From the NCBI GenBank assembly GCA_015179025.1, contig WHUX01000227.1:17326-81325 (forward strand): DNA of 64,000 nt, written 5' to 3'. The translations under genes were made by a program, and so were the position numbers. Source of the stretch: Terfezia claveryi. Taxonomy: Eukaryota > Ascomycota > Pezizomycetes > Pezizales > Pezizaceae. Position 1 is the stretch's first letter; every line of letters starts with the position of its first letter. Of the stretch, positions 1 to 59,050 are shown piece by piece. The notes beneath the pieces are model-generated. The model made no database searches. It was not told the origin of the DNA and saw nothing but the letters and a program-made list of their open reading frames with translations.

Positions 1-3000
1 AAATGTAGTAAGCCAGGAAAGGCCAGGTTTTGGAGGATTCTGAGAACTAGTTGTTCGCAGTAAACTCATAGGTAGCCAGCAACAAAACCCAGTTATCCTG
101 CTAGAAATTGATAAAGGTCCACAGATATTGCTCTATAATGGTATTCATCCTCTCTGATTGGCTGTCTGTCTAGAGGTGATATGCAGTTGATAAAAGAACT
201 TTAATCCCTAGAAGCTCGCAGAAGGCTCTCCAAAAGTCCGAGGTAAACTGAGGGCCATGGTCGGACACAATGGATTCGGGGAGCTCATGATACCGTAACA
301 CATTATTGAGGTAGAGGTTGGCCAGCTCCTAAGCAGAACAGGTATCCCGACAAGGTACGACATGCCTTATCTTTGTCAACCGGTCTACCACTATTAGAAT
401 GGTATTGAATCCCAAGTCTTCGAGCAATCCTGTAACGAAATCCATGGTCAGGTGCAGCCACGGCCAATCTGGGATGTCCAGAGGTTTTAGGGTCCCATAT
501 GTACCATTCCACATCCTTCCTCTAGTTAATCCAGGTGTACTGTCTAGCCAGGAGTTCTAATTTCTTGGCTACCCTAAAGTGACTTGCCATTAGGGTATTG
601 TAGTGTTCCTCGATCAGTCTCAGGCGTAACCCTCTTCCTCCTTCTGGGATATAGAGCTGTTCCTGATAGTACAGGAGGCCCTCCTGGACGGTATATTCAG
701 CCAATGAGATCTTGGGGTAGCGGCGCTAGCCAGATTCTACTATGGTGATAATCTCCTTGGTTAGGGGGTTATCCTCGTATGCCTATCTCACCAATTGTTA
801 GAGATTGGCTTCCCCGGTGGCTTCCCTGGCAGCCTTAGCTTCAGCTTCCACATTAGCTTCAGCCTCAGTGAGGATATTGGCTGCCAAATCAAGGTTTTCG
901 GGCTTCAAGACCACCTGATTTTGGTATTTTAGCCTTTCATTCCCTCTTTTAGGGAGGTCACCTGATCTCCTAGTTAAGGCATCTGGTTTCCCACCAGCCT
1001 TACCTGGCTGGTATTTTATTTTGAAGTTGAACCGATATAAGAACTCTGACTACCTAGCCTGCCATTGGTTAAGCAGTTTGGTGGTAGTGAAATACTTAAG
1101 GTTCTTATGATTAGACAACACCTCAATAATCCCCTTGGCTGACTCCAGGTATGGCCTCTACTCCTCGAATGCTCTTATAATGGCCATCAAATCCTTGTCA
1201 TAGATCTTGTAATTGCACTCGGCCGGGGAGTGCTTTTTCGAGAAGTAAGCTACTAGGTGGAGGATGCTATTATTGTTGTTCTAGAATAGAATTCTCGCAG
1301 AAACATAGTTGGAAGCATCAGTTTCGATGACACATTCCTAGTCAGGTTTGAAATGAGGTAGGATCAGCGCTGAGCAGAAGGCTTTCTTGAGGTTCTGGAA
1401 GGCCAACTGAGCTTCTGGATTCCACTGGAAGGCCTTTTTCATCATCGGATATGAGCTAGCTTTCACCTTCATTTTCAGGTGTAAGCCAGCTTCTGCCTTC
1501 ATTTTCGTCAAGGCTGTCAGGAGTGCCACGATCCTTGAGTATCCCAGGATGAACCAGCGGTAAAAGTTGGTAAATCCTAGAAAGGCTTGCACGTCCTTCA
1601 AATTGGCCAGGGTTTCCTACTCCTAGATTGTGGCAACTTTGGCAGGGTCCATCCGGATGCCTTCCATAGTAATAATCAACCCCAGATATTTAACCTCCTG
1701 CATATAAAACTCACATTTCTTGGGTTTAAGGTACAATCCGGCTTGCTCCAGCTTCTTAAACAATTGTCGGACATGGATTTTGTGCTCTGCCAGAGTGTCT
1801 GAATAGATCAGGATATTATCAAGGTAGGCTGTGCAGAACATATCTAGAAAGTCTTGTAGGATGTAATTAATAAAGTATTGGAAGGAAGCTAGGGCATTAG
1901 TCAATCTAAAAGGTATGATATTGTACTTGAAGTGGCTATAACAAGTTCAGAAGGCCATTTTCCACTCCTCCCCCTTGGCAATCCGTACCAGGTTGTATGC
2001 CCCTCTCAGATCTAGTTTGGTAAACCATTTGGCCTTAGAAAGCCTGCCCAATGTCTCCTAGATTAGAGGTAAGGGGTACCTGTTCTTGACTGTTATCTCA
2101 TTCAGGCCCCGATAGTCTACACATAGCCTAAGAGAGCCATCTAATTTCTTGACAAATAGCACCGGGGCACCCGCTAGTGAGGAGCTGTAGCAGATGAAGC
2201 TCTTGTTGAAGTTTTCTTCCAAGTACTTCTTCAAAGCTTCTAGCTCCAACCAGGATATTCCATAGAGGGGCCTATAAGGGGGGGTCTTGCCCTCTATCAG
2301 TAGAATAGTATGGTCATATGGCTGGTGGGGTACAAGCTTTTCTGTGGCCTTCTCCAAGAACAAGTCGATAAATTCATAGTATTCATCTAGAACTATGGAC
2401 TTCTACTCCTCCTTCGACCATATCTTATTAATCTCCGAATTCACCTCATGTATGGACAGGGCATGAGCCTTCAGCTTGTGCCTCTTAGTGAGGTAAGCGA
2501 AAGCCCCTGCCCCGATAAAGCTGACATTTAGGGGTTTTAGGAGTTGTAGTACAGGAGAGCCAGGGGAAGTAGGAGGGGTAGGGAGCATAGGAGGAACAGG
2601 AGAATTAGCGGCATTGATATGTACAGACTGGTGAGCCACCTGGGTCGAGTAGATTATTGGGGGTGACAAGGCACACAGCCCAGTAATGGTGGCCTCTGGA
2701 TTCCTGCAGTGCTTTTTGTAATACTAGCTATTGAACTGTAGGGTGTAGGAGCCGAAGCTAACCGATACATCATGCATTCTAAGCTAGGGGATTTCAAGGA
2801 CAATTGGATACTTAAGCTTAGTCACAAACATTGGGAAGTTTGCTTTGGAGTGATCCCCGATCTGGGTAGGCAAGTATGCAATATTGGTGATATCCTTAGA
2901 GGAAATTAGTCGACCATCAATGACATCCAAAACAGGGGGTTTTGAGCTTGGACGTGAGTATGGAGAATTTACTAACAAAGGCCTGGTCAATGAATGCAAT

Positions 3001-3180
3001 TCCTGAAGCTTTACAATCTATAAGGGCTGATATAGTGATTGTTCTATCATCATTAATTTTAAGGGAAATAGATACAACAAAGTGCTCACTGAACAAGTGA
3101 GATTCATTAATAACAGAAGAAGTGGAAGACACAGAAAATGCAGACAAAGACAGAGATAAATGGCCTGGAGTAGGTCCCTT
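1..3180 (-). pseudogene. gypsy copy 1 pol: protease, RT, RNase H, integrase (degenerate)
   Basis: Decayed polyprotein gene for retrotransposition. Protease: ALIDCKASGIAF near 3020, where D-S/T-G-A is expected, so the active site is altered. [20 protein letters not shown] near 2110-2160, and AYLDNILIYSD near 1810-1835, where YLDD has become YLDN, a loss of a catalytic Asp. RNase H lies at about 1330-900. The integrase zinc-binding/core part lies at about 700-300, with MDFVTGLLEDLGF and VVDRLTK. Frames change and TAG/TAA codons interrupt it repeatedly, so no functional protein is expected. Gag and pol are in different frames, as in relatives that use frameshifting. The C-terminal chromodomain expected for this family lies beyond the window. 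Confidence 0.88.
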
Positions 3181-3194
3181 GCTAGTGTCAGTAA

Positions 3195-4345
3195 CTAGGC
3201 AAGGGACAGGGCTTTTCCTGACTTGTCAACCTCCTTGATCTGGAGTACTGGGATGTCGGAAATGGCATGGATGGCTAGAGTATGGGCTTTCCGAAGGGGA
3301 CAGGCTGCAATAAAATGATCCGCCTTCCCACATGTAATACACAGGCCTTTATCTCTATGCCTGTCCCTTTCCTTCTGGGTCAACTGAGGCCTTCTTGAGG
3401 ATAAATCTATGGAGGCAGGACCTTCTGGCACTAGTAAGGGGTATACCGGCTAGTTGCTCATGGGAGATTGGGCTGGCTTGGTGTTCGGCTGCTGCTGCTA
3501 TTGTGCTGGGCGGGTGGTCGGTCGGAAGGCCAGTCAGTAGTATAACCTGGCCATTCGTTGCTCTACTATAGAGGTCTAGTCGATCAACTCCTCAAGAGTA
3601 TTAACTGCGAGGAGGGTTACCATGGCTTGTTGGAACTCATTGCTAAGCCCTTCTTAGAATTGCTTAAACTTGGCCTAGTCATTCCACTTTACCTCTGCGG
3701 CCAGCTTGGAGAACTCTGCCACGTATGTGGACAACTCTGAGTTCTGCTGTCTCAAGGCTTAGAGGGCTAGACTAGCTATTTCCACTACATCAGGATCTCT
3801 GAACGCCCGATCCAAGATGGCAAATAAGGCTGGGATGTTATCAAGCTTCATCTCTGTCTAGAGCACATAGGGCTGGATCTGATCTATGGCCTTACCCTCT
3901 AGCAAGATGAATACATAGGCCAGGCGGTGTTGTTCTAATGGAAATCTAGCCGAATCCCTGCTCAACTTCAAGTTCACCGCATTTTTCTAGGCTTGTAGAC
4001 AAGCCCTATCCTTATTGAATTTAGGGGGAGTCAGAATGCTTTCAGTCTTATTGCTACTGGCTGCTGTTGGTATTACGATGTTCTCTAGAGTGTGGCTGAG
4101 GTTTTGGACCATAGTCTGTTCGTTGGCCAGGGCAAGGTTCACATGGTCGAGATCCGTTTAGAGGATCATGATTTCTGCATCGGCGGATCTCAGCTTTCGT
4201 TCAGCCACGGCTAGGCTGTCGCCGAGTGTGGCCCCAATGGTATTCATAGCCTTGAAGATGTCAATGATTTCTTGATAATAGGCATTCAATTCATTCGGGC
4301 CTGAGAGTATAGGGGAGCTTCTCTAGGTCTGGAACTTGACAGCAG
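3195..4345 (-). pseudogene. gypsy copy 1 gag with CCHC zinc knuckle (degenerate)
   Basis: Capsid/nucleocapsid gene on the minus strand. The capsid-like part (about 4000-3550) carries KFNKDRACLQA and a helical region ending ELSTYVAEFSKLAAEVKW, typical of retrotransposon gag. The C-terminus has an intact zinc knuckle, CITCGKADHFIAAC (CX2CX4HX4C), near 3310-3350. In the other copy (27185-33356) the knuckle His is replaced by Tyr. Several TAG codons break the frame. I see no clear start codon matching the sister copy's MAGN start, so the 5' limit is approximate. Confidence 0.82.
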
Positions 4346-12277: not shown

Positions 12278-12318
12278 TAGATATATAGTGTGCTCTATCA
12301 GAGTGGTTTTCTCTGATC
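12278..12318 (+). repeat. 8-bp target duplication and left terminal inverted repeat of the large hAT
   Basis: TAGATATA (12278-12285) is followed by the terminal repeat starting TAGTGTGCTCTATCAGAG. The first 17-18 bases pair with the right end, with one or two mismatches and one gap. Confidence 0.72.
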
Positions 12319-12428
12319 CAATCCAAAAAAACCCACTCTGAAATTTAGTTTTTTAGCTCTCTTAACTAATCTAACTTAGTTTTTTCCCTATAGTATCCTA
12401 TTCACTCCAAACTATTTATTTTTAGATA

Positions 12429-12475
12429 ACTGCCAAGCATCCGAATGTTTAGCCAAGCATCCAAATATTTAGCCA
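12429..12475. repeat. ~21-bp tandem repeat
   Basis: About 2.3 copies of a unit like GCCAAGCATCCGAATGTTTA near the left end of the large hAT. Subterminal repeats of this kind can be transposase-binding sites, but that is only an inference here. Confidence 0.45.
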
Positions 12476-13189
12476 AGTAAACTGAATACTTGATATACAG
12501 ATTTTCCCAAATGATTTCTGTACTCAAGTTCCTTTATACCTCACACACAACAAGCTCATCCAAGCTATATATGTATTGATTTTTATATATAAGCACTATG
12601 TACAAATGCCTGTCTCTTATACTCTATATATATATTGCCTATATATTTAGCTAGAATATAACCATTGCACTAAACCCCACAACTTCCCTCTCCCCTCTAA
12701 ATAGGTCAAACTTGTTTGCTCTCACTGTACTTATATGGTACAGTACTTGTTACTAAACTTGTTATAGGTTCTGTCACAGGTCTTATCATAAGTCCTGTCA
12801 TGGGTTTTGTCATAGATCTTTATTAGTAGGGTTTTTCTTGTCACAGGTTCTTTACATTCCATAAATATACTTATATATATCAGCTATGAAGGCATATGTT
12901 CTACATATACAGTTTAATTTTGCAGGTTTCTGCTCTTGTTGGTAGACCCTACTCATATGATGGTTCGCTTCCCAGAACCCCCAAAAAAGGCTTAAAAAGA
13001 ATTTTTCTCTAGCAGATCTAAAGTTTAATATGACTTCTTAGCTTCATAATATCACACTACTACTGGATTGGGAACACTTTGGTCTCTACATACATAGTCT
13101 AATTATAGAAATTTAAAGAACATTCTATATAAGATAAAGGTATCATAAACTACCTTTATTATTTCCTGAAATTTATTATTACAAGGCCA

Positions 13190-13660
13190 ATATGGGCAAT
13201 ATGGATATTAGAACAACCAGGCCTGATAAGAAGCCCTTCTATTAAGCCAACACTTAGTAACTCTCTATTCTATACTATCCTCTTTGATTTAAGGTCTCTT
13301 TCCTGCCATCTCTAATCATGAGCCCTTTATTGCTGGCAGAGCTGCTATTTAGTATGCATAGCTCTTCGGACAATAGTTTCCTCTACATTATGCCATGGCT
13401 CACGTATTGGTATATGGGGTTGGCAACTAGCAGAAGGAGGGTCAATAATTATAGGATGTTAAACAAATTAGAAAAATTCCACTTGTTTATATAGAGAAGG
13501 CTTTTTATTCTTCTAGTCTTCTAGCTGCTCATAAGAGGGTTCCTCAGAATCCTCTATGCTATCAATTCTTATAGCTTTGGTACCTATATCACTAGAGGTT
13601 GTAGGTACTTCTATTAGTCTACAATACTGATTGTATAGATATCTAGCCCTAAAATTACTA
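13190..13660 (-). pseudogene. Unassigned degenerate reading frame in the large hAT
   Basis: One minus-strand frame from about 13655 to 13190 stays peptide-like between TAG codons: ARYLYNQYCRLIEVPTTSS, then IRIDSIEDSEEPSYEQLED, then QPHIPIREPWHNVEETIVRR. Nearly all stops are TAG or TAA at positions where Gln or Trp would fit, so this is probably a RIP-killed gene. The centre is acidic. I do not recognise the family. Weaker coding-like sequence continues upstream to about 13850, perhaps with an intron. Confidence 0.45.
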
Positions 13661-13859
13661 CATTAAAGGCTTAGCTGCAAGCTTATAACAAAGTCTGGTT
13701 GTTTTCAAGTGATGTACCTACTACAACTACTATAGCATCTTTTTCCTGTCTACTGAGACTTTACAATTTTCTACCTTTACAGCTGCTATATTTTTAGTAC
13801 GTGCAGTTGCCTGTGGCTTCCAAAAGCTTAGTTTCTAAGAGCAATGAAAATATGATTAG

Positions 13860-15200
13860 AATCTATCTAGTATAATCAGTCCATTGGGCAAGCCCATTAA
13901 GCTTAGAATTATAAAGACTAGGATTATACAAGATAACTGCCAAATAATGATATTGGGCAAGTTACTAAATATAAGAAGTTCATACCTTAAAGCCACACTC
14001 TGCTCTCATACTTGTCTGCTTGAAATGGTATGTATAGTATTTTTCTGGATACGAGGATAAGGATGTTAAGGATTTTTAGTAAATAAGCAGTAAATGAGGA
14101 TTAAATGAAGATATGATATGGAGTAAATTGTTATTACTATGTATGGACATATAGGTTTTATCTAGAACTGCTTGAGCTATAGCTTCCACCCTCAGCCCCT
14201 CGATGTCTCTATTGCTAAACCAAAGTAGTCTCCAAAACTTACAGAGCCCTAATACTATAGAGACTAGTATTATTTAGTAGTACTATCACATTACAATTTC
14301 CAAGATATATTTATATAGTAGATTTTGATGGATATTGTACGCTCGAGCCTTAATCTACAAATCTAAGCCTATTTGGAATACAACTTGTACCCCTTTTGGT
14401 AAAGTTCTAAAGTGAAGCTCAGTAGAAATATTACATATATATGTAATAGTACTACCGAATGACTACAGTATGGTAAGCTATACAACTCCCTCAAGGGTTT
14501 ATTTTTCTTAATGAAGCTGTTCCTTTTTCATGCTGCTAGCTTGTATTAACCTTTACTACATAATTGTATTCGATATACTGCAGAAATTATTTAGTCTGTC
14601 TCAGAGTTACAATCCTATTGACTGTCCTTTCAGAAACTAATTAGTTTTGTCATGAACTCATTATCTTGTTATGGACTAATTGTCTTTTCATAATCTAGTT
14701 GACTTATTACCAACTGGTTAACCTCAAGTTGTCACGGACTAGGTAGTTGACTTGTCATGGACTAATATTTTGTTTCAAACTCATTATCTTTTCATAGACT
14801 AGGTAGTTGACTTATTATAGACTGATATTTTATCATAAACTTACTGTCTTTTTATAGACTAGGTAGTTGACTTATCATAGTGGAGTTGTTATTGAGTTCA
14901 CTTGTCATAGACTATATTAGATTATAGTTTGTTAGTTAGATTGTTGTTCACTGTTAATATTACTATTATAGGTACTGTTACAGGTACTATTACGAATACT
15001 ATCATAAGTGCTATCATAGTGCTACAATATAGTTTTTGCTCTCTTTATAACAGTTGCATCTTAAATTCAAACAACTAGAGAACTATCTTATAAGAAAAAT
15101 AAAAACATATAGAAAAAAAAAAAAACAGAAAAAAACAGAAACTCAGAAAAAAAAAAACTCAAAATAAATAAAATTCCATTCCAAATACTACCCATCACAA
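13860..15200. other. No assignable gene; tandem repeats and A-rich tract
   Basis: AT-rich DNA. 14640-14910 holds a ~60-bp imperfect tandem repeat (GACTAGGTAGTTGACTTATCATAG variants). 14940-15030 has shorter TACTATTACGG-like units. 15100-15180 is A-rich. No domain was recognised on either strand. Confidence 0.5.
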
Positions 15201-15247
15201 ATCACAACTTGCCTCCCATTACTTCTATTACTCCAACCTCTCTTCTA

Positions 15248-16304
15248 GTTTATCCTCTGTCCTGATATCCTATATATTCTACTAAGTCTCATCTCTTCCA
15301 ATACATTTGAATAAACTATACTATTGTATTCTTCCATAGCATAAATATGATTCAAGGTCTGGAAGTCCTTCAGTTTGATTGTTTATCTGTTGGCATGGAT
15401 AGCAAGGTGGTTAGCCCCTTGTTTTCAATTTAGTTATTCTCAGTATATTGAATTCCTTATGTTAACTTATAAGAGAGATACTTTATGATATAGTTTTTTG
15501 CTTCCATATGTAGAGCATATACTGCATTAGATGTCATACAAGTTATCGGTAACACCCTAGAGATAGTACTATAATTTTCTGTACTTATATCTTATACTAT
15601 TTCCCTGCATACTCTGCTAAAAAGCAATTGTAGGATTAGGAATTCTACGCTTTTTTGGTACCTTTTTACCTCCTTACACAAGTTCTCTATATAGCATCTC
15701 CTGCTAGTTAAATATCCATAGTTATAAAACAGGTCAATTTTACTTAACTCTGCCCCCAATAATGCTTTTGCTATACTACTTATTGGTTTGCTAAAGGAGG
15801 ATCTTTTGGAGGAGGGTCTGTTGGAGAAGGGTCTGCTGAATCAATTAGTGCTAGATTTGGTAGAGCAGGGTCTACTGGAGGGTCTGCTAGATCAATTAGT
15901 ACATGGTTTGGTAGAGGAGGGTCTACTAGAAGAGGGTCTGCTGAAGGAGGATTTGCTAGAGAAGAGTCTGCTGGATAAGGGTTTGCTGGATTGATTAGTG
16001 TAGGGTTTGGTTAAGAAGGGTCTACTAGAGAAGGGTCTACTGGAGTAGGGTTTGCTGGATCATTTGGTGCAGGGTTTAGTAGAGGACGGTTTACTGAAGG
16101 AGGGTCTGCTAGAGGAGGGTCTGCTAGATGAGGGTCTACTGGATAAGAGTCTGCTAGATGAGGGTCTGCTAGACAAGGGTTATTGGAGCTTAACTTGCTT
16201 CCCATTTTTTTTTTTACCACTAGGGTTTTCTTTTTTTGGGCTGCTTACTTAGTCTTTGGCTTCATAATCATTTTAATCCTAGACTACTTCTTTTTAGCAG
16301 GCAT
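15248..16304 (-). pseudogene. Divergent histone H3-like gene (RIP-degraded) with repeat-rich N-terminal tail
   Basis: The minus strand encodes, in order: a basic start MPAKKK (ATG at 16304) followed by KTLVVKKKMG; a tail of Asp-Pro repeats from the minisatellite 15788-16190; then a histone H3 core. Core matches: KEVKRYQKSVEFLI (H3 REIRRYQKSTELLI, about 15680-15640), FSRVCREIV (FQRLVREIA), SNAVYALHMEAKNYI (SSAVMALQEASEAYL, about 15530-15485), then LAIHANR and TIKLKDFQ (CAIHAKR and TIMPKDIQ, about 15405-15360). Histone H3 is the nucleosome core protein. Loop 1 is about ten residues longer than in canonical H3, a feature in the direction of centromeric variants. Tail, core and last helix lie in three frames; a GT..AG stretch at about 15466-15418 may be an intron. 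At least two TAG/TAA codons replace Gln-type codons, so it is not functional as it stands. Confidence 0.68.
15788..16190. repeat. 15-bp minisatellite (GGTCTGCTGGAGGAG type)
   Basis: More than 20 imperfect 15-bp units. Because the period is divisible by three, frames stay open on both strands: Leu-Leu-Glu-Glu-Gly repeats on plus and Ala-Asp-Pro repeats on minus. Context puts it in the N-terminal tail of the H3-like gene, minus strand. Confidence 0.75.
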
Positions 16305-16569
16305 GTTTGATAGATTTACATGCTAGAATATATTGCAGGTATGACTTTCATATATAGTAGATAACTATAGTGTCTTAAGTATACATATACCAAAACAACA
16401 ACCTAAATACTCTACATAAAACAAAGGAAAACTAAGTTTAATATACCTAGAAAAATGGACAAAAGAAATTGCTTCTCTAGCTATTAATTAGAACATAGAA
16501 AATTTTTATTTTCCTCACAAACAACTCATCAAAATTTTTTTCTATATGTAAGCTCTTATGATAGCTCTT

Positions 16570-17825
16570 GTGACATTAAATTCACCCTACTACAGTACCC
16601 AGTGCTCTTGCACTATTAGGGCATATTGACTGACTATCTCATCAGTGGGGATTCCATAATAATCACTATTATCTTCATCATCCTCAATATCTCTCATGAG
16701 CTTATCTATGGCTTGTGGATTAGGATTAGCACAAATCTAGTCCAAAGTTTGTTGGTATAATATAGAAGCTTCGTTCAAGGTTTCCTCATTATTAGTATCT
16801 ATATCGTCATCATCTGTGAGCCTAGTAGGTATAGAGCTAGTATCAGAGGTATTGTTAATAACCTCATTATTAGTTGTATTGTATTTAAAATATTCTCAGT
16901 CATCTGAATCCTATATAGCATACAAGTTTAGTATCTTGTTTCTATATATTCGTATTTGAGAGCTTATAGGCTCTTCTTCTATAACTGGGTTGCTATTACT
17001 AGTAAATGTAGTCTTGGTAGAGTTAGAATTATCTTGGGAATCTGTGGTAGTTGCATCTGCTCAATGGATTATGATAATGTTTGATGTAGGAGCAACTGAA
17101 TATATCAGAATATATTAGTTTAGATTAAAACCTGGATATGGAAGATTTATAATTCATACTTCCCAGGCCTTCCTAGAAGGATATGCCTTTTCAACCTCCT
17201 CTACAGTCATCTCAAACTTGGGGATTATGTTATCTACTATAATACTCAAGAAGTAGCATTGGGTGTTTTTATCCAATATATTCCATTTCTTCAAGATATA
17301 TATATTTCGATAACACAATCTAATAATCACATATTCATTCAGAATCTCCTTATACTTATCCTGCTCAGTATTAGTAAGCTGGCTCTAGGATGTCCCAATA
17401 GGACGTTTGATAATATCTGCCACTTCCTATATAGTAATTCCTCCATACTGAGCCCTTGATTTCTCTTATCTCAATATATCCTTCAGATGGGCTAGAGTCA
17501 AGGGAGGGCCTCTCAAGGTGGATCTATTAGATCAATTAGATACTGTCTTTGGATTTGTTGAGGTTCTATGTATTTGGATTTCTCCACCAAATTCAACTTC
17601 CAGGTCAAATCACTTTTCCCATAGTAAGGTCACTCTTGCTTCTTTATTTTCTAGAGGTCTGTTCGGTGCAGGCAGTGAAGGCAGTGTAGGTAGTGCAAGT
17701 GGTATAGGCAATGCAGGTGGTGCAGGTAGTGTAGGCAGTATAGATAGTACAAAGGGAGGCAATATTGGAGGTGCAAGCAATACTAGGGGTGCAGTTTTAT
17801 AGAGAATCCTTCTTTTGGGTGGCAT
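16570..17825 (-). pseudogene. Unassigned gene with Pro-rich N-terminus and acidic C-terminus (degenerate)
   Basis: Minus-strand frame from ATG at 17825 (MPPKRRILYKTA) through a Pro/Leu repeat (minisatellite 17655-17800), then a folded-looking middle. There, KYKEILNEYVIIRLCYRN and IVDNIIPKFEMTVEEVEKAY (about 17390-17180) are open over long stretches. The tail is acidic: DDDDIDTNNEETLNEAS and MRDIEDDEDNSDYYG (about 16830-16640). Stops are mostly TAG. It resembles its neighbour, the H3-like gene, in a basic MPxK start and a repeat tail, and stands head to tail with it. Function is unknown. A chromatin or DNA-binding role is only a guess from the charge pattern. Confidence 0.5.
17655..17800. repeat. 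GGTGCAGGTAGTGTAGGC-type minisatellite
   Basis: Short 9-12-bp units, GG(T/C)(G/A)(C/T)A-rich, open on both strands. They form the Pro/Leu-rich segment of the minus-strand gene starting at 17825. Confidence 0.6.
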
Positions 17826-17879
17826 ATTTAGATTAAGGTATATTTGAACTACTATCAAGTTTAATGCCTATGAGAATTG

Positions 17880-18660
17880 TGATTTCTAATGTTTGTGATA
17901 TAATATAGGCTTATAATCATTAGAAAGGAGCTTGATCACAATTTGTAATATAGTAATGGAGGTCAATCTAAATATACAATTGTAAAAAATATTCGAGTAT
18001 CATTCTTTTATATTAGAAAGAAGAGATAGGGGCCCAATTATAGTGTTGTTTGCTAATGCAATCCTAGGTTATTTGCTAATGCAATTACCTACAGGAGGTG
18101 AACTGGTATATTAATATATTTAAACCTAATTAAGTAGCTATAATAAAACTCAAAGGAGGGTATTGTACTAACCAGCCTACGCTAAGTATTGACATATATA
18201 CTGATTAAGGCATTTGTCTAAATAATAAAGATATTATGCCTAAGACAAGTATGTTCGGGAACTAGACTAGTGTTTGAGTATATAACTTATATAAGGCAAT
18301 GCATCTGATACATACTAACCTGACTAGCTCTTTAGGAAAAAAAAAAAAACTACCTAGGCTAGCTAGTCTAATCAGGCTAGGCTAGCATAACATAAAGATA
18401 TACTAAGAAAACAAAATCTAACCTAAATACAACTACACAACTACTAGATCAAGACTACACAACTACCTGCCTCTCGAACCATTGCCTCCTTATAGCCTAT
18501 TCATTGTAGACCATACCCAATCTTAAACTAATCAGACAGTTCAATATGGAGACCATATACTCCCATCCTCAGCAACATCTGGACCTTTACTTGGTTTTTT
18601 CTTCCCTTATGCATGCAAACTTTGGAGATTATTTGCTACAACAACTATGTATATATATGG
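17880..18660. other. No gene recognised
   Basis: AT-rich stretch between two decayed minus-strand genes. 18040-18090 repeats the word TTTGCTAATGCAAT twice. At 18310-18385 a run of A is flanked by GACTAGCT and AGCTAGTC, a weak hairpin. Nothing else could be assigned. Confidence 0.45.
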
Positions 18661-18672
18661 TGAAGGTAAGTT

Positions 18673-19560
18673 TTAGCATTTCTCTATTATATGACCCAAC
18701 CTATTGTATGTAAAACATTCCATATCCAGCAGGAGAGAGAGAGGCTTGCTTTTATCTATCTCAAAATATATACCAATAGCATTAATATATAATAAATAAC
18801 AAGTTAATGGCCAGTTTGGATTTATGGTCAGTTGTCTGATTTTTTGGGACCTAATAATATTCAGCATAATTAGTTGTATACCTTATTCAGAGGTTGTTAT
18901 GCATATACCTCAGTGATCCTAATATCTTAATCAACTCTTTTCCACAGTAATTGACATGCATTCCTGGATTTGGATACCAAGATGATGAGATATAGACACC
19001 CTTTTGCCTAGCATCTATTTGAAGGATTTGTTAATAGGAGGTCAATATCTGCGAATTTTATTAGATAGAAATTTAGGTAGTTGAACAGACTGTGACAAGT
19101 ACATACCGAAGATAGTGTTGGTAGATTACAGATACTCTAACATAAATTGTACATATTGGAATTTATACATTTTCTAATATCAGCAAGTTCACCTTGATAC
19201 CTCTTTAGGAAATTCCCAAACATGCCAATCCATAAGAGGTCATAGAGGGTATAATCATTCAACTTTATCTTATCCCACAATAGATTTGGTATATAATATT
19301 ATAAGGGAATGTCAAGTACAATTAAAATGTTCCAGCTAATCTAAACAAGGCAAAAGATTTTGTAGATATCATATTGCTTAGGGCGCTATTCAAATTGCCA
19401 TTGTACTAGACCCATTGCTACTTCTCAAATATCATAGGGCTTGTGGATTTTTAATTGTTTAGTAATTTTGATAAATTGAGTGAGATTACTACTAATGTCT
19501 GAAAAAGTAACCTCACAGTCAATGCCTGATAAAGTAATATTACAGTCAATATTCGATTAA
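18673..19560 (-). pseudogene. Degenerate gene with a CCHC-like zinc knuckle
   Basis: On the minus strand, long peptide-like stretches are broken mainly by TAG. The clearest is 18867-18673, ending in FEIDKSKPLSLLLDMECFTY and NRLGHIIEKC. The last part fits CX2(C>Y)X4HX4C, a zinc knuckle whose second Cys has become Tyr. Knuckles of this layout occur in LINE ORF1 and gag-like nucleic-acid-binding proteins. Upstream peptide-like frames (about 19400-18970) are in other phases. The family cannot be fixed. It could be hAT cargo or a nested retroelement relic. Confidence 0.4.
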
Positions 19561-20150
19561 GTAACATCCCTATTAATATCTAATTCAGTATCTGAAAGAT
19601 CTAGGTACATCATGGCTATAATTATTATTATAATAATATGGGAGGATATTCTTATGTTTATATATATACTTTAGTAGTGGTAGATTTACTTATAGCAGAT
19701 AAAAAGGCCCTTAGTCAGAAGTAATCTTAGAATACTGTCTCTCTAATCTGAATTAGATACTATCTTCTTTATAGTAATTTTCTTCCTACTACTCATTACA
19801 AAAAGCTATTGTAGCTATGCTACTGTGGGACCATGAAGGATTAGATAAATACCTCTATAGCTTTATGCAAGAGATATAGATCCCTTGAACTATCATGATA
19901 TAAATCCTATAATTGCCAGAATTATTCCCATACCATATTTATTAATATATTCAAATACCTTACTATATTTACTGAATTCTTCTTCCCATATTGTACTATG
20001 GAACAACTGGTAGTAAATCAAATAACTGCCATTTCCTCCACACTGGCACTCAAGTGACTACTTATTAGGACTGCCTATTAGTTCAATGCAAATGTCTTGA
20101 CTGAGTTTATAAATTAGTGGGAGCATACCACATAGGCATAAAAGATACAA
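19560..20150. other. Low-information AT-rich spacer upstream of the hAT transposase
   Basis: Coding-like sequence is weak on both strands. 19500-19600 repeats GAAAAAGTAAC(C/A)TCACAGTCAATG-like words three times. It may contain the first exon or promoter of the hAT transposase. Confidence 0.35.
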
Positions 20151-22757
20151 TGTAATCTCAAAAAGGATGGCCCATCCTGTACAGATAAATACAGTGACCT
20201 GAAATAGACTTCCAGCCATCACTTAGCCAAGCAATAGGCAAATTATTGTTAAGGTGCATTTATCCGAAATGGAAAACCTTTTGTTTTCTGTTTGGCTTGT
20301 AATACACCTTTAGTGTATTCAAGGGTGTTTAATGTAGGTACTTCAAACCTTTAGAATCACATAAAGTCATCCAAATGCTAGAGTATTAGTGGTTCTTCCA
20401 TGCAGAGTATTTAGAGCATGATAAGGAAGGTAGGTTTTACTCAAGCAAACTAGATACTAGATACTTCTAAGCCGCTAATATTTATCTAGGCATCAGTTGC
20501 TCACATAGATCCTGTTTTAGAATTTTCAACCGAGTCTTTCCACAAAGAATTGGTCAAAACTATAGTAGCAGTACATCTACTATTCTATACAATTAAACAT
20601 TTGCAATTCCGCAGACTCATTAATGTATTGCATTTCAATATTATTATACTATCAGCAAATACTTTATGCTATACTGTCTATGAGTATGTACAGGATATTA
20701 CTTTGAAGCTAAAGTATATGATTCCCCATAATATACAAGTGCATATAGCTATAGTCACTTAGACTTCACCTAATAGACTAGTATTTGCTAGGACTACCAT
20801 ATATTACCTAGATAAAAACTAGGTTCTTTATAAGAAAGTAATTGGATTCTAGGCATTAGGCTATACCTCCTACATGGGAAAATTCTTAGTCGAGAAACTA
20901 GCCAAGATTCTAGGCTAATTTGATCTAGCTCAATGTATGCTTTACCTAGTAACAGATAATATACAAGTAAACTATGTTCTAGCCAGAGAGCTTTGAAGTA
21001 TAGTACTTGGTCAGAAATAATAGGCAGATCAGTATTATTTACTATGTTTAGCCTATATACTAGCACTAGCTAGTAAAGCCTTTATAGGGAATTTTAAATT
21101 ACAACCAACAAATAAAGTATTCGATTATAATCTAGGTAACCTAGATACCTCAGTCAATACATTATAGCAATACTCACCTAGTACATTTAGCTGAGCTATT
21201 TTTAAAGTATGTGAGCTATATAAATAAGATAAGATAATCATATACTAACCAAACTAGGTTCATAAGGTATTTAAGGCTATAATTGCTAGTCTTTTATGTC
21301 TGTCGTAATTCAAAGCACTATAGAAAGGAAGCAAAACTCAACCTATTGGTTTACTTCAAGATGTTAAAACATATTAAAATTCAACTTTTCATATATTGGT
21401 AGGGGTGTAATGACTAAAAGATACAATTGACTACTGGATTAGTCATGATGCTAAATTCATAGCCTTTTAACTTACAGAAGATGAATGGCAACAAGTAGAT
21501 CAGGCTATTATCTTTCTAAAGCCATTTGTAGATTATATGAATGATATTTTAAGTAGTAAGAAGGCTACAATTCAGAATGCTTATTTTATCTACAATAATA
21601 TATTTAAACATATCACTCGCTATCATTAGAAGGTTCGAAAGCTCAACAGCCCTTAAGTATCTAGGTTACTAGATGCAACAAAATCTAGTCAAAAGGTATT
21701 GTAGAAATATATCATAGATACCAGCCAGCATGGGTTCATTTACAATATTATAACAAGCTTGGACCCCTCCAAAAAATTAATAATATATGACTCTTAGGAT
21801 AGTGTTTAAATCTAAGATCCCATAATGGATGCTAGAATCACGAGTACAGTCTCATATAGAGATTTCTATAGGTATACTTTATTTTCACCTAGAACAATTT
21901 AGTGATATTGCCTTAATAAAATAGGGTACTGGTGATAATGCTATAGTCCATAATAGCTCCATAAACCCGTAACAAATATATACTCCTATAACATATTGAT
22001 TCTTATACTAAATCTAGTTTACTAGGAAGAATATAGCTAATAATATGGTTATACACTTAGGATACAATTTGAGTACTTCTATGACTCAAACTACTAGTAT
22101 TTCCTGAAAACTCAAGATCAACAAGTACAAGATGCTAATAGTAGTGAACAATCTTACATTATACAGAGATTACAAGCTTGGAGTTTAAAAAATGATTAGG
22201 AAGTGACTGAAGTATGCAGGTACCTCAATTCAGTGATTGTTATATTGTATTAAGGGGACCCATTAAGTTGGTGGAAATCTAACTAAGCAGAATTCCCCAC
22301 TCTTACATAAATGGCATGTGATATCCTAAGCATCCTAGTAAGCTCTGTATTAGTAGAAAGACTGTTTAGTTCAGGGTAAGATATAATGCTATATAGAAGG
22401 AATCGACTAGGGGAATAAATAATCCAAGATCTGCTAATCTCCAAATCATGAGACAAGAGATGAAATATGAATTTAGAAGAGGCAGAATATAATGCTGAAC
22501 CTTGTCAACTTGAGATAGAAGGTAATATAGAAAATATCATTGGTACGGTGCAAGCTTCAGTATTAAATACAAAGTTTTTACAAAAAATTGTACCTTTACC
22601 AGATAACAATAGCAATAGTAATGACTTCCTATCTGATAAGAGTAAAAAAGGTAGTGGCTCCGAAGTAGGTGAGGAAGATGGGAAGAAGGACCTAAAATGC
22701 AGCCCATTTAGGCAAAGAAGTGTAACACTGAATATTTGGGCTCAGCATGCATTGTAG
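20150..22757 (+). pseudogene. hAT transposase (BED finger, RNase H-like core, hATC; degenerate)
   Basis: Transposase of the 12286-23463 element. BED-type finger: Cys codons at 20289 and 20298, His at 20358, Cys at 20376 (CLAC...NHIKSSKC), with a Trp codon turned to TAG. N-terminal helical part at 20550-20762. Catalytic core with LVTDNIQVNYV near 20940-20975 (usually TDNAsNN) and LLCLAYILALASKAF near 21040-21085. C-terminal hATC dimerisation domain at 22255-22445, including DPLSWWKSN, MACDILSILVSSVLVERLFS and YRRNRLGE. After two TGA codons, probably former CGA, the same frame continues into an acidic tail, 22467-22757, which is open and also conserved in the second copy. At least a dozen TAG/TAA codons make it non-functional. 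Confidence 0.82.
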
Positions 22758-22759
22758 AG

Positions 22760-23430
22760 AGAGTAAGGGGTAGAGGAACTGGTGATACCTACCCGACTTG
22801 GAAAGAAGAAGGCAAGAACTCAAGACATGCCCCTTATTACTACACTACTTACAAGTTGACTCTGGAAGAGGATAAGGAAGAATTATGTAGTATAAATGGG
22901 TTGAGAAGTGGGAACATCTAGGCTGGTGATGAAGTTAGGTAGATGAAATAGAAATAATTCTACTGATCAAATTGTATGGTACAAATACGAGGAGTAGAAG
23001 GTGAAGATAGGGTTATATAAACTGTACTATAGAGAGTACGCTAGTTGTTATAGGTAGTAGAGTAGTATCACTGAAAGAGTAGCTATGTTATAAGAAGAGA
23101 GGCTATATAGACTGATGATGTAATTAGAAAGATAATATGTAAATGTTTATAATCGGAAAATTATATGGGTGATAATATGAGGAATAGAAGGTAGAGGCCA
23201 ATTTGTATTACTTGTATTATAGAGAGTACACCAGTTGTCATGGGTAGTAGACTTATGTCATAGGGAGGGAGCTATATTATAGAGAGGGAAGCATTGTCAT
23301 AGGATACAATAGTGTTCCAAGAAATCAAATAATTAGTTTTTTCTAGATTATTTGTAGTTAGAATCTAGTTTAGATATTGTGAGATAGAGAATGGTTCAGT
23401 TTGGTTTCGGCTCAGAGTAAGTAGAGAGAA
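22760..23430. other. 3' non-coding part of the large hAT
   Basis: Sequence between the transposase tail and the right terminal repeat. Its inverted counterpart, clearly alignable, is at 24840-25470 in the second hAT copy. No gene. Confidence 0.6.
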
Positions 23431-23471
23431 AATCTGATCTGAACTGCTCTGTAGAGCACTCTATAGATATA
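23431..23471 (-). repeat. Right terminal inverted repeat and 8-bp target duplication of the large hAT
   Basis: Read on the minus strand from 23463: TAGAGTGCTCTACAGAGC, then AGTTCAGATCAGATTTTC. The same end, in inverted orientation and slightly diverged, is present at 24805 in the second hAT copy. The duplication TAGATATA is at 23464-23471. Confidence 0.72.
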
Positions 23472-54806: not shown

Positions 54807-57800
54807 CTAATCGTACAACTCGTTCCACGTATTAAAATCAATCCTATTATTAACCAACCAGACCCTCTCAGCCTCCACTGGTATCAGATGTGCCATCCCC
54901 TCTATGTCCGAAATCTTGATGACATGTATTGCTCCTTCGTCCTCGCGTTTTTCCATCCTTATCATCCCTTCCTCACTATGCGGTCTGCTAGATCCTTTTA
55001 CTCTCAAAAACCTCACATATGCCACCTCATGTGTTCTTCCCACCCCATTCCAGATCCTGAAAATCCCCTCCAGCCTAGCTACAGTACGACTATCGAGTTG
55101 TCCACTGCTCTCTTGTGACCGTGGCCTCATCCTTACCCAAATCCAATCTGCCCTAATATTTCCACGCCTCCTAAAGTCCCTATTCCCTGTCCAGCGAACA
55201 TGGTGAGTTTCTAAACCATCTCCTTGAAATTGCTGCACTGCCACTGCGATGCTAGTCAGATATTGCCCTCGGTACGTCTCGATCCCCTCCGTGTCTGCTG
55301 TAGCAACTCCCCAATAACCATTCGCGCGTAGATAATCCTGAAACTTGCCAATTAAGTTCGGGATTTGGAGTATTTGTGCAAGGACTGACAAGGGTTCTGC
55401 TATTGCGTTCCGTGCCAGTGGTTGGCTAGTCAATCTGGGATGGTTATAGTTCCTACCCATACCTTCTGCATCCTTTCTCATTGTCATAATCAGAGCCTTC
55501 ACCTCACCATCGAACGAAACATCCTTATCCCATGAACATAAATTCAACTCCAACATTCTAAATGCATGATCCCTTGAATGCGTGTCAAGGATTTGGATTG
55601 TTGCGTCAACCCTATTCGACCGCTTATAAGCATCCTTCAGAGGCTTGTGGAGGGATTCCGTAATCTCTGTCGAATACTGTGGGAGGGTTCCGAATTGAAT
55701 GACCTGTTCCGCGTAATGGGTCAGAAGGTGCAGCTTCGGGTAGTTAAATGTCGACTGAGCCAGCATGTCGGCCACTAGCAGTTCTCGTTCCTGACGATTT
55801 GCGGACGCTCGGTTTGCCTTTTGCGTAGCAGTGGCCGGAAAGTAACTCGAAATCGTTGCCTGACGAGCCTGAGTCACCGCAAGATCCTTAGAAGCCCCCT
55901 TTGCCTTCTTGTAGTCAGTCTTACTTGCACGGAATTCACCAAATACATGACGATACCTGTGGAAATCCTGTAGGTACTTAGTCATATATTGGATTGTCTC
56001 CCCAGTATGACTTCGATATTGCGCAATTAAGCAGAAGTCCGATAGTGCACGAACGGCCCGTATGGCAATTTTCACGTCAGCCTGAGCAGCTGGTCCCAGA
56101 CGGCTGGTGTCCTTTTCACGATGCATGGCGGCTGTAAAACAACCAAGAATTACCCGTCCCACACCTCGCATTTCTGTACCACTCCACATTGTGATTTGGC
56201 GATACTGCTTCCGCGGTGGAGTGAATCCTGGGTATGGTGGCAACCTACTCCATATTTCATCGAAAACTGCAAGCCTTTTGTGTTTTTCCAAAAACCCCTG
56301 TATCCACTCCATCAAATTTTTCAGGACACCTAGGTGTATATTATGTAGTATGTCTGCACGTACAATGCTCGGTGGGCGGACTATAGGGAGAGTCCAAAGC
56401 GCATTCTGGATGGGCTTTACATCCAGAGCGGTTAACCTGTTATCGACAATCAATTTCCTTCCTGGATAGAAAGGGGGGGGGGGGGACGGACCCATCATTA
56501 TTGTTGGCTGCCCACAGGCTCTCATAGCGAGTATGGTCACGCTGAGCGTACGGTCGTTTAGGTAATAACCCAAGCTGATCCCGACTCGCTGTACAAATTG
56601 GACACCGGTTGACTTTTATGCAATGGATATTCACATTCTCCATGTGATCAGCAAGCCATGTCGATACGATAGGTATACAACGCCGGACGTTCTCATCTCC
56701 ACATACTATCTCCGACCCACCCTCCTTCGCAGAGTCAGTCATTGTCAAATGTAATCTGATAATAGTTTGTCAGCTTACCTCGAACATACTGACTAAGGGT
56801 GCCAAGATTCGTTCAAGCAGTCGGTGTTGTGTGTCAAGGGAATCATGTTCTTGGTTACGGACTGAGAATCCCCTAAGGGACTTTGTTCGTTTCGGGCCAA
56901 TAGGTAACAGGCCTATTAGGATCCACGCTTGGCTTGACGGCTTATTTCGAATAGCTGATGGGATGTTCCCCACGCTCATGAAAATGGGCCACAACTTCTT
57001 ATCGCCGGAAAAGTTGGTCAGGCATGTTTGATCTGACGTTATGAGAACAGGTACTAGGCTCGAGCCAACTGGGAGGGTCATCTGGCGGCCTGTTAGTAGC
57101 CGTTTATTTCATAAGGGACTCGATAAAAACCTACCTGCGTGTTCCACCACCACTCTCCCGTATGCATCTCGGTATAGACCCTGTTTCCTTGTCGATCAAA
57201 GTCCTTCTGAGGTTTGAAAACCAGATACTGAGCGTACGCTTTCTGGCGGAGAAGATAACGAATACACTGTTCAATGTCCCGGTAGAAAAATGTCACCCCT
57301 CTTTCAAGGTGGAAATCTACGGTCCCATGCTGCCATGCTGGTTGGTCTATCAGTGCTCGCATTTTATTACGCCAGGTGTAACCAGACCTATAGCCGACTC
57401 CGATTGTCCGGGGCCTATCCAGAGGCAGCAGCTCATCTTTGAAAAATTGATCAATTTGCTTCATCGAAGTCTTGCTCTGATGGAAGAAGCGTGCAAGCTT
57501 ATATTCATAAGCATTGGTAAATGGTAATAGTGGATTCCATGATGGGTTCCGAATCTGCGTGAACAATGACTGACGTATGACTTGTCCCACTTGGAGTGAC
57601 TGTGGGGGATACTCCTCAGTACATGGATGAGGACTGAGTGGGTCCGATGATACCTGCGCAATGCTCGGTAATCTAATGTTGTTGTGCACGGTTGAGGTAG
57701 CATTCGAACTGTGGGTGGTGAGTCCAATTGTGAGTCTATTTACCGCATCGACGCTGTACTGCCGGCGTCGCTTCAGGGTACCTGACAGCCTGTGAGGATC

Positions 57801-57920
57801 TGGCGTCGCTGGTTTTTTGGGGGAGGTTGTATGCAGTTCTTTCCCCGGGTGATTTTTGCGCAGATGTCGCCCATAATGGCCAGCAACAGTGAACTGAGAA
57901 TTGCAAAACTGACACCGCAT
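54807..57920 (-). CDS. Plavaka-type (CMC/CACTA superfamily) transposase, one apparent frameshift
   Basis: Large DDE transposase, about 1000 codons, the usual size. Exon 1, 57920-57135, opens with a C2H2 finger (Cys3, Cys6, His19, His24: CQFCNSQF...GRHLRKNH). Intron 57134-57082. Exon 2, 57081-56779, has VLITSDQTCLTNFSGDKKLW (first catalytic Asp) and AWILIGLLPIGPKR. Intron 56778-56725. Exon 3, 56724-54807, has VCGDENVRRCIPIVSTWLAD, CPICTA, then RADILHNIHLGVLKNLMEW (second Asp) and STEITESLHKPLKDAYKRSN (candidate Glu). The frame shifts within a 13-G run at 56473-56485; with 12 the frames would agree, so this is a recent mutation or a sequencing error. Apart from this it is intact, with no RIP stops. 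The start codon lies inside the upstream 198-bp repeat. Confidence 0.85.
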
Positions 57921-59050
57921 ACTCTCCTATCAACTATGTAAGTTCCGTAAAAAAATGCATGCATAGTGGATCTCACATATAACAATTAGCCGATTAAGGT
58001 CTCAATGCGGACTATGTCTGTATTCGGCGATGCCGTCTTGTTCGAAGTAAGGTGTAAGCTCGACGATATTGGTATGTAACTGGACTCTATAGCAACTGAG
58101 GTATCTAAATTAACACCGCGTACTCTGCCACCAAGATATTAGTTTTGTAAAATTTTCATGCGGAGTGGATCTCACATACAACGATTGCCCGAATAGGGTC
58201 TCGATGCGGACTCTGTCTGTATTCGGTGATGTCGTCTTGTTCGAAGTAAGGTGTAAGCTCGACGATATTGGTTTGTAACTGGACTCTATAGCAACTGAGG
58301 TATCTAAATTAACACCGCGTACTCTGCCACCAAGATATTAGTTTTGTAAAATTTTCATGCGGAGTGGATCTACATACAAGATTGCCCGAATAGGGTCTCG
58401 ATGCGGACTCTGTCTGTATTCGGTGATTCGTCTTGTTCGAAGTAAGGTGTAAGCTCGACGATATTGGTATGTAACTGGACTCTATAGCAACTGAAGTTTC
58501 TAACTTAACACCGCGTACTCTGCCACCAAGATATTAGTTTTGTAAAATTTTCATGCGGAGTGGATCTCACATACAACGATTGCCCGAATAGGGTCTCGAT
58601 GGGACTCTGTCTGTATTCGGTGATGTCGTCTTGTTCGAAGTAAGGTGTAAGCTCGACGATATTGGTATGTAACTGGACTCTATAGCAACTGAAGTTTCTA
58701 ACTTAACACCGCGTACTCTGCCACCAAGATATTAGTTTTGTAAAATTTTCATGCGGAGTGGATCTCACATACAACGATTGCCCGAATAAGGTCTCGATGC
58801 GGACTCTGTCTACAGAATTCAACCCCGAATACTCTGCTACCAACAATATAAGTTCAGTATCAATTGCGGAGTGGGGACCACATACACCCAATGGCAGAAT
58901 ATCTAGGGGCTCACCGGGGACTCCCTGCCACCAGTGGAATCCGGTGGTACTGTGTAGTTTGAATTCTTGGGGCGCAAGCTGGATGATAGTGGTATAGAAC
59001 TAGACCCTATAGTTCCGTAATCATAAAAGTCCCACCGCACTACGTATGTT
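57913..59050. repeat. ~198-bp tandem repeats upstream of the Plavaka transposase
   Basis: TTCGAAGTAAGGTGTAAGCT recurs at 58040, 58240, 58436 and 58634 (spacing 199, 196 and 198 bp). One more, strongly diverged unit spans about 58815-59050. Every unit contains ACCGCGTACTCTGCCACCAA, whose first copy ACCGCATACTCTCC holds the transposase start codon (CAT on plus strand, 57918-57920). The gene's promoter is therefore a tandem array. Such repeats may bind the transposase. Confidence 0.8.

Follow-up and report, generated by a model that had tools for sequence, protein, structure and literature searches.

Histone H3-like genes inside hAT transposons have been described from fungi before. A hAT element of about 5.6 kb in Pyrenophora tritici-repentis was found to encode a transposase and an H3-like protein and to have a further, central ORF; ESTs were reported, and the H3-like protein was regarded in the available text as neither H3 nor CenH3 (Manning et al. 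2013; PMC3538342). In Pseudocercospora fijiensis, 784 H3-like copies were reported in hAT elements with a full length of about 9.5 kb, and related cases were found in five further species. According to the available text every copy but the original gene was inactivated, and the elements were interpreted as having captured a housekeeping transcript (Dhillon et al. 2019; PMC6710886). With H3-like genes published for hAT elements of Pyrenophora and of Pseudocercospora relatives, this kind of element is already known. Accessory genes of other types also occur in transposons. VANDAL transposons of Arabidopsis encode VANC anti-silencing proteins that act on arrays of short motifs (PMC10398659), and TET/JBP dioxygenase genes are carried by DNA transposons of fungi, truffles included, among which are hAT elements (PMC12730594).

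Here we analyze an H3-like gene (H3L) of Terfezia claveryi. The window, the whole stretch of DNA that was analyzed, comprises 64,000 nucleotides of contig WHUX01000227.1. It had previously been read from its letters only; this sequence-only reading had proposed that a divergent H3 gene is carried by a hAT element.

A decayed hAT element carrying H3L

The location of H3L inside a hAT element was borne out by the element ends, the target-site duplication and a transposase remnant. Scanning for TAGTGTGCGC-type termini delimited an element of 11,178 bp (12286..23463), complete by its ends and with decayed genes, with identical copies of an 8-bp target-site duplication (TSD), TAGATATA, on either side (12278..12285 and 23464..23471). 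Its terminal inverted repeats (TIRs; 12286..12297 on the plus strand and 23452..23463 on the minus strand) match each other at 11 of 12 positions. Gene remnants inside were located by tblastn with proteins of relatives as queries. The hAT transposase remnant, interrupted by many stops, lies on the plus strand at 20028..22622 (best E 4.5e-42; 34 % identity over 237 residues). Remnants of accessory genes lie on the minus strand, namely ORF A (13162..13662; E 3.6e-18), ORF B (17187..17672; E 8.9e-15, recovered in a second search), which has a helical core and an acidic tail in intact relatives, and ORF X (19206..19289), represented by one short part with a weak match (E 3.6e-5). The 8-bp TSD, the short TIRs and, in the C355 relative described below, a C-terminal dimerisation domain are features of the hAT superfamily. 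The window also contains further long reading frames at 54807-57926 and 1623-3225, which by eye are transposase-like and retrotransposon polyprotein-like, respectively.

Three-frame translation recovered all five H3 motifs named in the sequence-only reading from the minus strand of 15248-16304, in the order claimed. The motifs KEVKRYQKSVEFLI, FSRVCREIV and SNAVYALHMEAKNYI share one minus-strand frame (about 15699-15463) with a single in-frame TAA. This predicted exon (15463..15699), supported by translation, similarity searches and shuffles, covers alphaN, alpha1, loop 1 and alpha2. LAIHANR and TIKLKDFQ lie in a second minus-strand frame (15418-15323), separated by one stop, in a predicted exon (15323..15418) covering the end of alpha2, loop 2 and alpha3. 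At the position between these exons relatives have a short GT..AG intron (C355, C773 and L024; read by eye) or a frame change (L023). The tail described earlier as repeat-built corresponds to an S/R/P-rich repeat that lies 5' of the fold and in its frame. The presumed N-terminal tail (15700..16304, minus strand), recognized by translation and by comparison with relatives, combines these repeats with a basic start at 16304 that reads MPAKKK and then runs into a stop.

A Protein Data Bank search (177,635 sequences) with the window exon, X standing at its stop, matched chains of histone H3 (E = 1.1e-5). The peptide of the exon with alphaN to alpha2 scored 84 against host H3 and 78 against host CenH3, that of the last exon 49 and 58; in all four tests, none of 2000 shuffled peptides scored as high. 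A chance match as the source of the H3 likeness is ruled out by the Protein Data Bank match and the shuffles. When the genome was searched with this exon, with Q at the stop position of the query, its nearest relative matched with an E-value of 5.0e-15; for the three that follow, E-values were 2.3e-13 to 5.0e-12. Recurrence of the motifs in other copies of the element had been named beforehand as a test, and they do recur. The proposal of a divergent H3-type histone gene stands on the match to H3 chains and on Pfam Histone matches of two intact relatives. A structure predicted from the decayed window exon alone (mean pLDDT 46.7) placed helices roughly where alphaN, alpha1 and alpha2 were expected, and as a model is uninformative.

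Relatives in the T. claveryi genome

Related elements were grouped in families, labelled fam1 (C355 and the like), fam2 (C773 and the like), fam3 (L023, on contig C27), which is nearest to the window copy, and fam4 (L024, on contig C512). The C773 relative is a complete element of 12,597 bp with the 8-bp duplication TGAGTATT. The C355 element has good TIRs, but no matching TSD was found in the scan of its ends. Elements of fam1 and fam2 end in short inverted repeats of the TAGTGTGCGC type. The C355 transposase matched Dimer_Tnp_hAT (PF05699) with 37.2 bits (cut-off 21.4); its DUF659 and hAT-like RNase-H matches fell below the Pfam cut-off. A 618-bp non-autonomous hAT element with ends of the same type and a perfect 8-bp duplication, AATATCAC, was also observed (L032, 7472-8089).

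The Pfam Histone profile gave 40 matches over the genome, seven of which were excluded as host histones; three of these were read, as CenH3 (L001), H3 (L002) and an H2A-like frame (L005). In the matched stretch, 19 of the 33 H3L matches are open, and the other 14 are interrupted by stops. Merging of the Pfam and window-exon searches yielded at least about 53 H3L loci, some with E-values near 0.001, and the gene is indeed multicopy, as the sequence-only reading had supposed. Neighbours of these loci were counted with 100 merged transposase loci (153 matches) and 95 merged ORF B loci (128 matches). ORF B was found upstream of H3L on the same strand within 6 kb at 36 of the 53 loci, in 34 of these 36 at a distance of 1.3-1.9 kb. 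A transposase lies within 20 kb upstream on the opposite strand at 30 of 53 loci, and both genes are upstream of H3L at 27 of 53. Conversely, H3L was found within 15 kb of the transposase at 14/38 close and 3/6 window-like loci, and at none of the 18 distant loci (26-32 % identity) entered in the comparison. Transposase loci that lack H3L may owe this to decay, to insertions nested in them or to the ends of contigs, but are still counted as misses.

H3L, ORF A, ORF B, ORF X and transposase are all present in C355, C773, the window element and L023, while the transposases of the window and L023 are only 34 % and 41 % identical to that of fam1. ORF X was taken as one gene formed by two adjoining parts (queries from C355 and C773), of which the window retains a piece of the first, C355-query part only. 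In L024 of fam4, H3L, ORF A and ORF B were found together with a transposase 7.0 kb upstream. The order of genes differs between lineages: compared with C355 (L022/L042) and C773 (L033/L041), the window element and L023 have ORF A beyond H3L, and ORF X flipped relative to the transposase.

Introns, fold and tail of H3L

The H3L introns, read by eye, are 53 and 58 bases long in C355 and 69 and 77 bases in C773. Both predicted introns have matching positions in fam1 and fam2, and they do not correspond to the host H3 introns, of which three were read. The spliced H3L proteins of C355 and C773 matched Pfam Histone (PF00125) with 45.8 and 44.7 bits (cut-off 26.4), and in the Protein Data Bank the C773 protein was matched best by histone H3.6 (E 2e-11, residues 1-150 aligned). 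A protein search for relatives of fam2 H3L found none at E <=0.001 among 11 candidates, and a scan of viral contigs with a protein nearly identical to fam2 H3L gave three pattern matches and no relative. The named matches of the protein searches included no Pyrenophora or Pseudocercospora proteins.

Starts of H3L were taken, for each copy, as the ATG with most K and R following. They read M-x-x-TKQ in 17 of 21 copies and exactly MARTKQ in 7 of 21, all being fam1 and fam2 copies that are not independent of each other. Starts in these two families are MARTKQ or MAGTKQ; that of C773 is MARTKQ, the same as in canonical H3. TKQ is missing from the starts of fam4 (MGGQQRK), fam3 (MPGKQTGRK) and the window, whose tail is heavily decayed. 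K9 is substituted in fam1 H3L and stands in a different context in fam2 H3L, and the ARKS motif at K27 is missing in both. K4, K9 and K27 of the H3 tail have roles in histone marking. H113 of H3, a residue of the H3-H3 interface, is also lost in fam1 and fam2 H3L; with the loop insertions of these proteins, this makes a normal H3-H3 interface doubtful. The sole canonical H3 gene found in the genome searches is at L002 1246-1875 (contig C153). Its tail after K14 reads APRKQIKQQFQQAAHKVARKVAHTSNSGG, in which the K27 context (ARKS) is altered relative to human H3.1.

H3 or CenH3

T. claveryi has an uninterrupted CenH3-like gene (L001; C773:158050-158370), 72 % identical to a segment of S. pombe Cnp1. 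From a longer loop 1 and a non-canonical tail, the sequence-only reading had likened H3L itself to centromeric H3 variants and suggested that it could tie the element to chromatin or centromere biology. The longer loop is real. Counted on the alignment, loop 1 of H3L has an insertion of 11-14 residues relative to H3, which goes in the direction of host CenH3 (8 residues), the Cnp1 segment having 6 and human CENP-A 2. The tails of H3L are unusual as well, and the last exon of the window scores higher against host CenH3 than against H3 (58 and 49). In a tree of 11 sequences and 96 columns (five H3L, two H3 and four CenH3) H3L is placed toward the CenH3 side by a weak branch (71/77), and fam3 and window H3L are about equally near to both types: fam3 is 33 and 31 % identical to the two H3 and 30-34 % to the four CenH3, the window 41 and 38 % and 31-39 %, respectively. 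However, the same tree unites the five H3L sequences in a clade of their own (94.4/89), with window and fam3 H3L as sisters (99.1/100). H3L of fam1 and fam4 is nearer to H3 (40-45 % identity) than to any CenH3 compared (33-37 %), and that of fam2 is nearer to H3 or tied. Furthermore, a start of the canonical H3 type, as present in fam1 and fam2, is not known from CenH3, and the host already has a CenH3-like gene of its own. A centromeric identity of H3L is not supported by these comparisons and appears very improbable to us. We regard H3L as probably H3-derived, mainly because of the TKQ starts.

Selection and decay

The strength of selection was estimated from single pairs of copies. For exons 2 and 3 of H3L, fam1 (C355) and fam4 (L024) differ with a dN/dS of 0.169 at a dS of 0.867 over 109 codons (Nei-Gojobori). 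The ratio between fam1 and fam2 is about 0.15 (0.154), at a dS of 2.3 that is near saturation, and the comparison of fam4 with fam2 is saturated. The other two forward frames gave ratios of 0.95 and 1.86 for exon 2 and of 3.35 and 1.69 for exon 3. A low ratio was obtained in one reverse frame too (0.39 and 0.30); overlapping codon positions can account for it. Of the 51 changes in exon 2, 28 are at third positions, and of the 23 in exon 3, 15. As far as single pairs can tell, H3L appears to be under purifying selection between two element families. Transposase parts showed dN/dS values of 0.13, 0.08 and 0.36 between fam1 and fam2; between fam1 and fam4 the value was 0.20 for ORF B and 0.62 for ORF A, which would be under constraint less clearly.

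Relative to C355 or C773 as reference, most of the changes seen in other copies are of the C-to-T type and affect CpG and CpA much more than CpC and CpT; in C331 against C355 these numbered 147 at CpG, 129 at CpA, 35 at CpC and 21 at CpT. The sequence-only reading had ascribed the decay to RIP. C-to-T decay that includes CpA agrees with this, but in none of 18 comparisons was CpG affected less often than CpA, and the window element is mainly depleted in CpG (CpG odds 0.16, TpA odds 1.16, RIP composite index 0.07; the index is -0.40 and -0.45 for the C773 and C355 copies). On these CpG changes, classical RIP alone does not appear to be a full account of the decay. Judged by the pattern of changes, the decay is RIP-like, not classical CpA-only RIP.

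Both kinds of evidence bear on the possibility that H3L is a passive passenger, i.e. that a host H3 transcript was picked up by a hAT element and transduplicated, and that the copies have since drifted and decayed without function. The many broken copies (14/33) and their C-to-T decay are in agreement with this, and the predicted introns of H3L, being unlike those of the host H3 gene, form the pattern expected if a transcript had been captured. There are, moreover, published precedents, and the Pseudocercospora elements were interpreted in this way (Dhillon et al. 2019). Neutral drift is difficult to reconcile, however, with a dN/dS of about 0.17 at a dS of 0.87 between two families, given the frame controls, with introns that match between fam1 and fam2, and with the same genes standing alongside transposases as different from fam1 as those of the window and L023. 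The shared gene set together with the sign of selection argues against passive capture and for a role in chromatin that serves the element. Passive capture is the main non-functional rival, and we consider it somewhat unlikely.

ORF B and the motif arrays

ORF B has an acidic tail behind a conserved core that the model shows as helical. Of 37 gene models found, six were measured, and their last 120 residues contain 37-56 D/E. Homologues elsewhere were found in Terfezia boudieri and Tirmania nivea. The first member gave no Pfam domain, and 27 members gave scattered weak matches (best E 0.0039). The single match of an ORF B profile in the Protein Data Bank (E 0.29) was taken as chance. An AlphaFold2 model of low confidence (pLDDT 54), better in the core helices, returned nothing at E <=0.001 in Foldseek. 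It is from the acidic tail alone that ORF B may be called chaperone-like.

An 8-base motif, GTCACGGA, which was chosen by eye, occurs at about 3 copies per kb, compared with a nominal 0.03 expected from base composition, uncorrected for that choice. There are 42 copies in the C773 piece (the 12.6-kb element), 36 in C355 and 19 in L024, many of them outside reading frames (L033 and L041, L022 and L042, and L024). No copies were found in two control stretches or in the 618-bp L032 element, and the window element and the L023 stretch hold one copy each; the arrays therefore belong to fam1, fam2 and fam4.

Such arrays might be binding sites, and H3L might be a DNA-binding, architectural part of the transposition complex that packs the long element or holds its ends, instead of an anti-silencing histone. 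The 42 copies within one element and the co-occurrence of H3L with transposase are consistent with this role. Other hAT elements, however, transpose without a histone. H3L is also absent near the 18 distant hAT loci, and the arrays are missing in the lineage of the window and L023. We therefore hold an architectural role, the main functional rival, to be unlikely.

Proposed role of H3L

The explanation that we prefer, held tentatively and at a little below an even chance, is that the window element represents, in decayed form, one lineage of a large hAT family which encodes transposase, H3L, ORF A, ORF B and ORF X, and that H3L works for the element through silencing-resistant nucleosomes. The H3-type fold, the hAT structure, the common gene set and the mark of selection on H3L are established at the level of sequence. 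H3L would, we infer, be no passive cargo; it would act in chromatin for the benefit of the element. It may pair with host H4 and so form altered nucleosomes on element DNA, and ORF B, chaperone-like by its acidic tail, could assist in their formation. These nucleosomes would withstand host silencing because their tails are without the usual K9 and K27 contexts, and two H3L families keep the K4 context (A-x-TKQ). Nucleosomes that are poor substrates for silencing would, in our judgement, be the most likely mechanism; the chromatin step is the least certain part of the proposal. The 14 of 33 H3L matches with stops, and the tails of fam4, fam3 and the window, which are without TKQ, weigh against this explanation. 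So do the doubtful H3-H3 interface of fam1 and fam2, the ORF B searches that recognised no domain, the dN/dS of 0.62 for ORF A, the transposase loci near which H3L was not detected, and the dependence of the selection estimates on single pairs.

A further-reaching version would have an ancient hAT lineage with a histone as core gene, in which H3L and its acidic-tailed partner build element nucleosomes that refuse silencing marks, guided in some families by GTCACGGA; the captures described from Dothideomycetes would then represent the same lineage and not independent thefts. This version we regard as improbable.

Comparison with described systems

The plan published for the Dothideomycetes elements, a transposase and an H3-like gene between TIRs, is also that of the T. 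claveryi elements. The Pyrenophora element shares the hAT transposase, the H3-like gene and the presence of intact copies. It is about 5.6 kb long, compared with 11-12.6 kb for the T. claveryi elements, and its host belongs to the Dothideomycetes; drift, not selection, was proposed by the authors in the available text (Manning et al. 2013; PMC3538342). The Pseudocercospora elements likewise have a TSD of 8 bp, number in the hundreds, show C-to-T decay and include an H3-like copy with an insertion. Each of them, according to the available text of that report, contains one or two H3-like stretches; these have no introns, and all copies except the original are inactivated, whereas 19 of 33 matches are open in T. 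claveryi (Dhillon et al. 2019; PMC6710886).

VANDAL elements likewise encode accessory proteins and have short-motif arrays in their non-coding parts. They are of the MuDR type, not hAT, VANC is not described as a histone in the available text, and its anti-silencing activity was proven by experiment, whereas that of H3L is only inferred (PMC10398659). The TET/JBP transposons are similar in being fungal DNA transposons whose extra gene has DNA or chromatin as its target; its product is an enzyme, and the gene is spread over many superfamilies. SET histone methyltransferase genes in transposons are mentioned in the available text of that report, a histone gene is not (PMC12730594).

Literature searches, one of which was directed at histones encoded by transposons and retrieved no papers, found no report of an H3-carrying hAT element from Pezizomycetes, the class of Terfezia; the published hosts are all Dothideomycetes. 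New are the occurrence in this second fungal class, the larger elements, the shared genes kept through rearrangement and the mark of selection on H3L. In both papers on Dothideomycetes the histone gene within hAT elements is treated as host sequence that was captured or transduplicated; the open copies, apparently under selection, suggest a histone variant of the transposon's own. With intact copies and apparent selection on the histone, H3L looks like a component of the transposon and not like accidental baggage. H3L also offers natural H3 variants, altered in tails and loops, for nucleosome studies. If the proposed role is true, a transposon with a histone variant of its own would deal with host chromatin in a way that is new for mobile elements.
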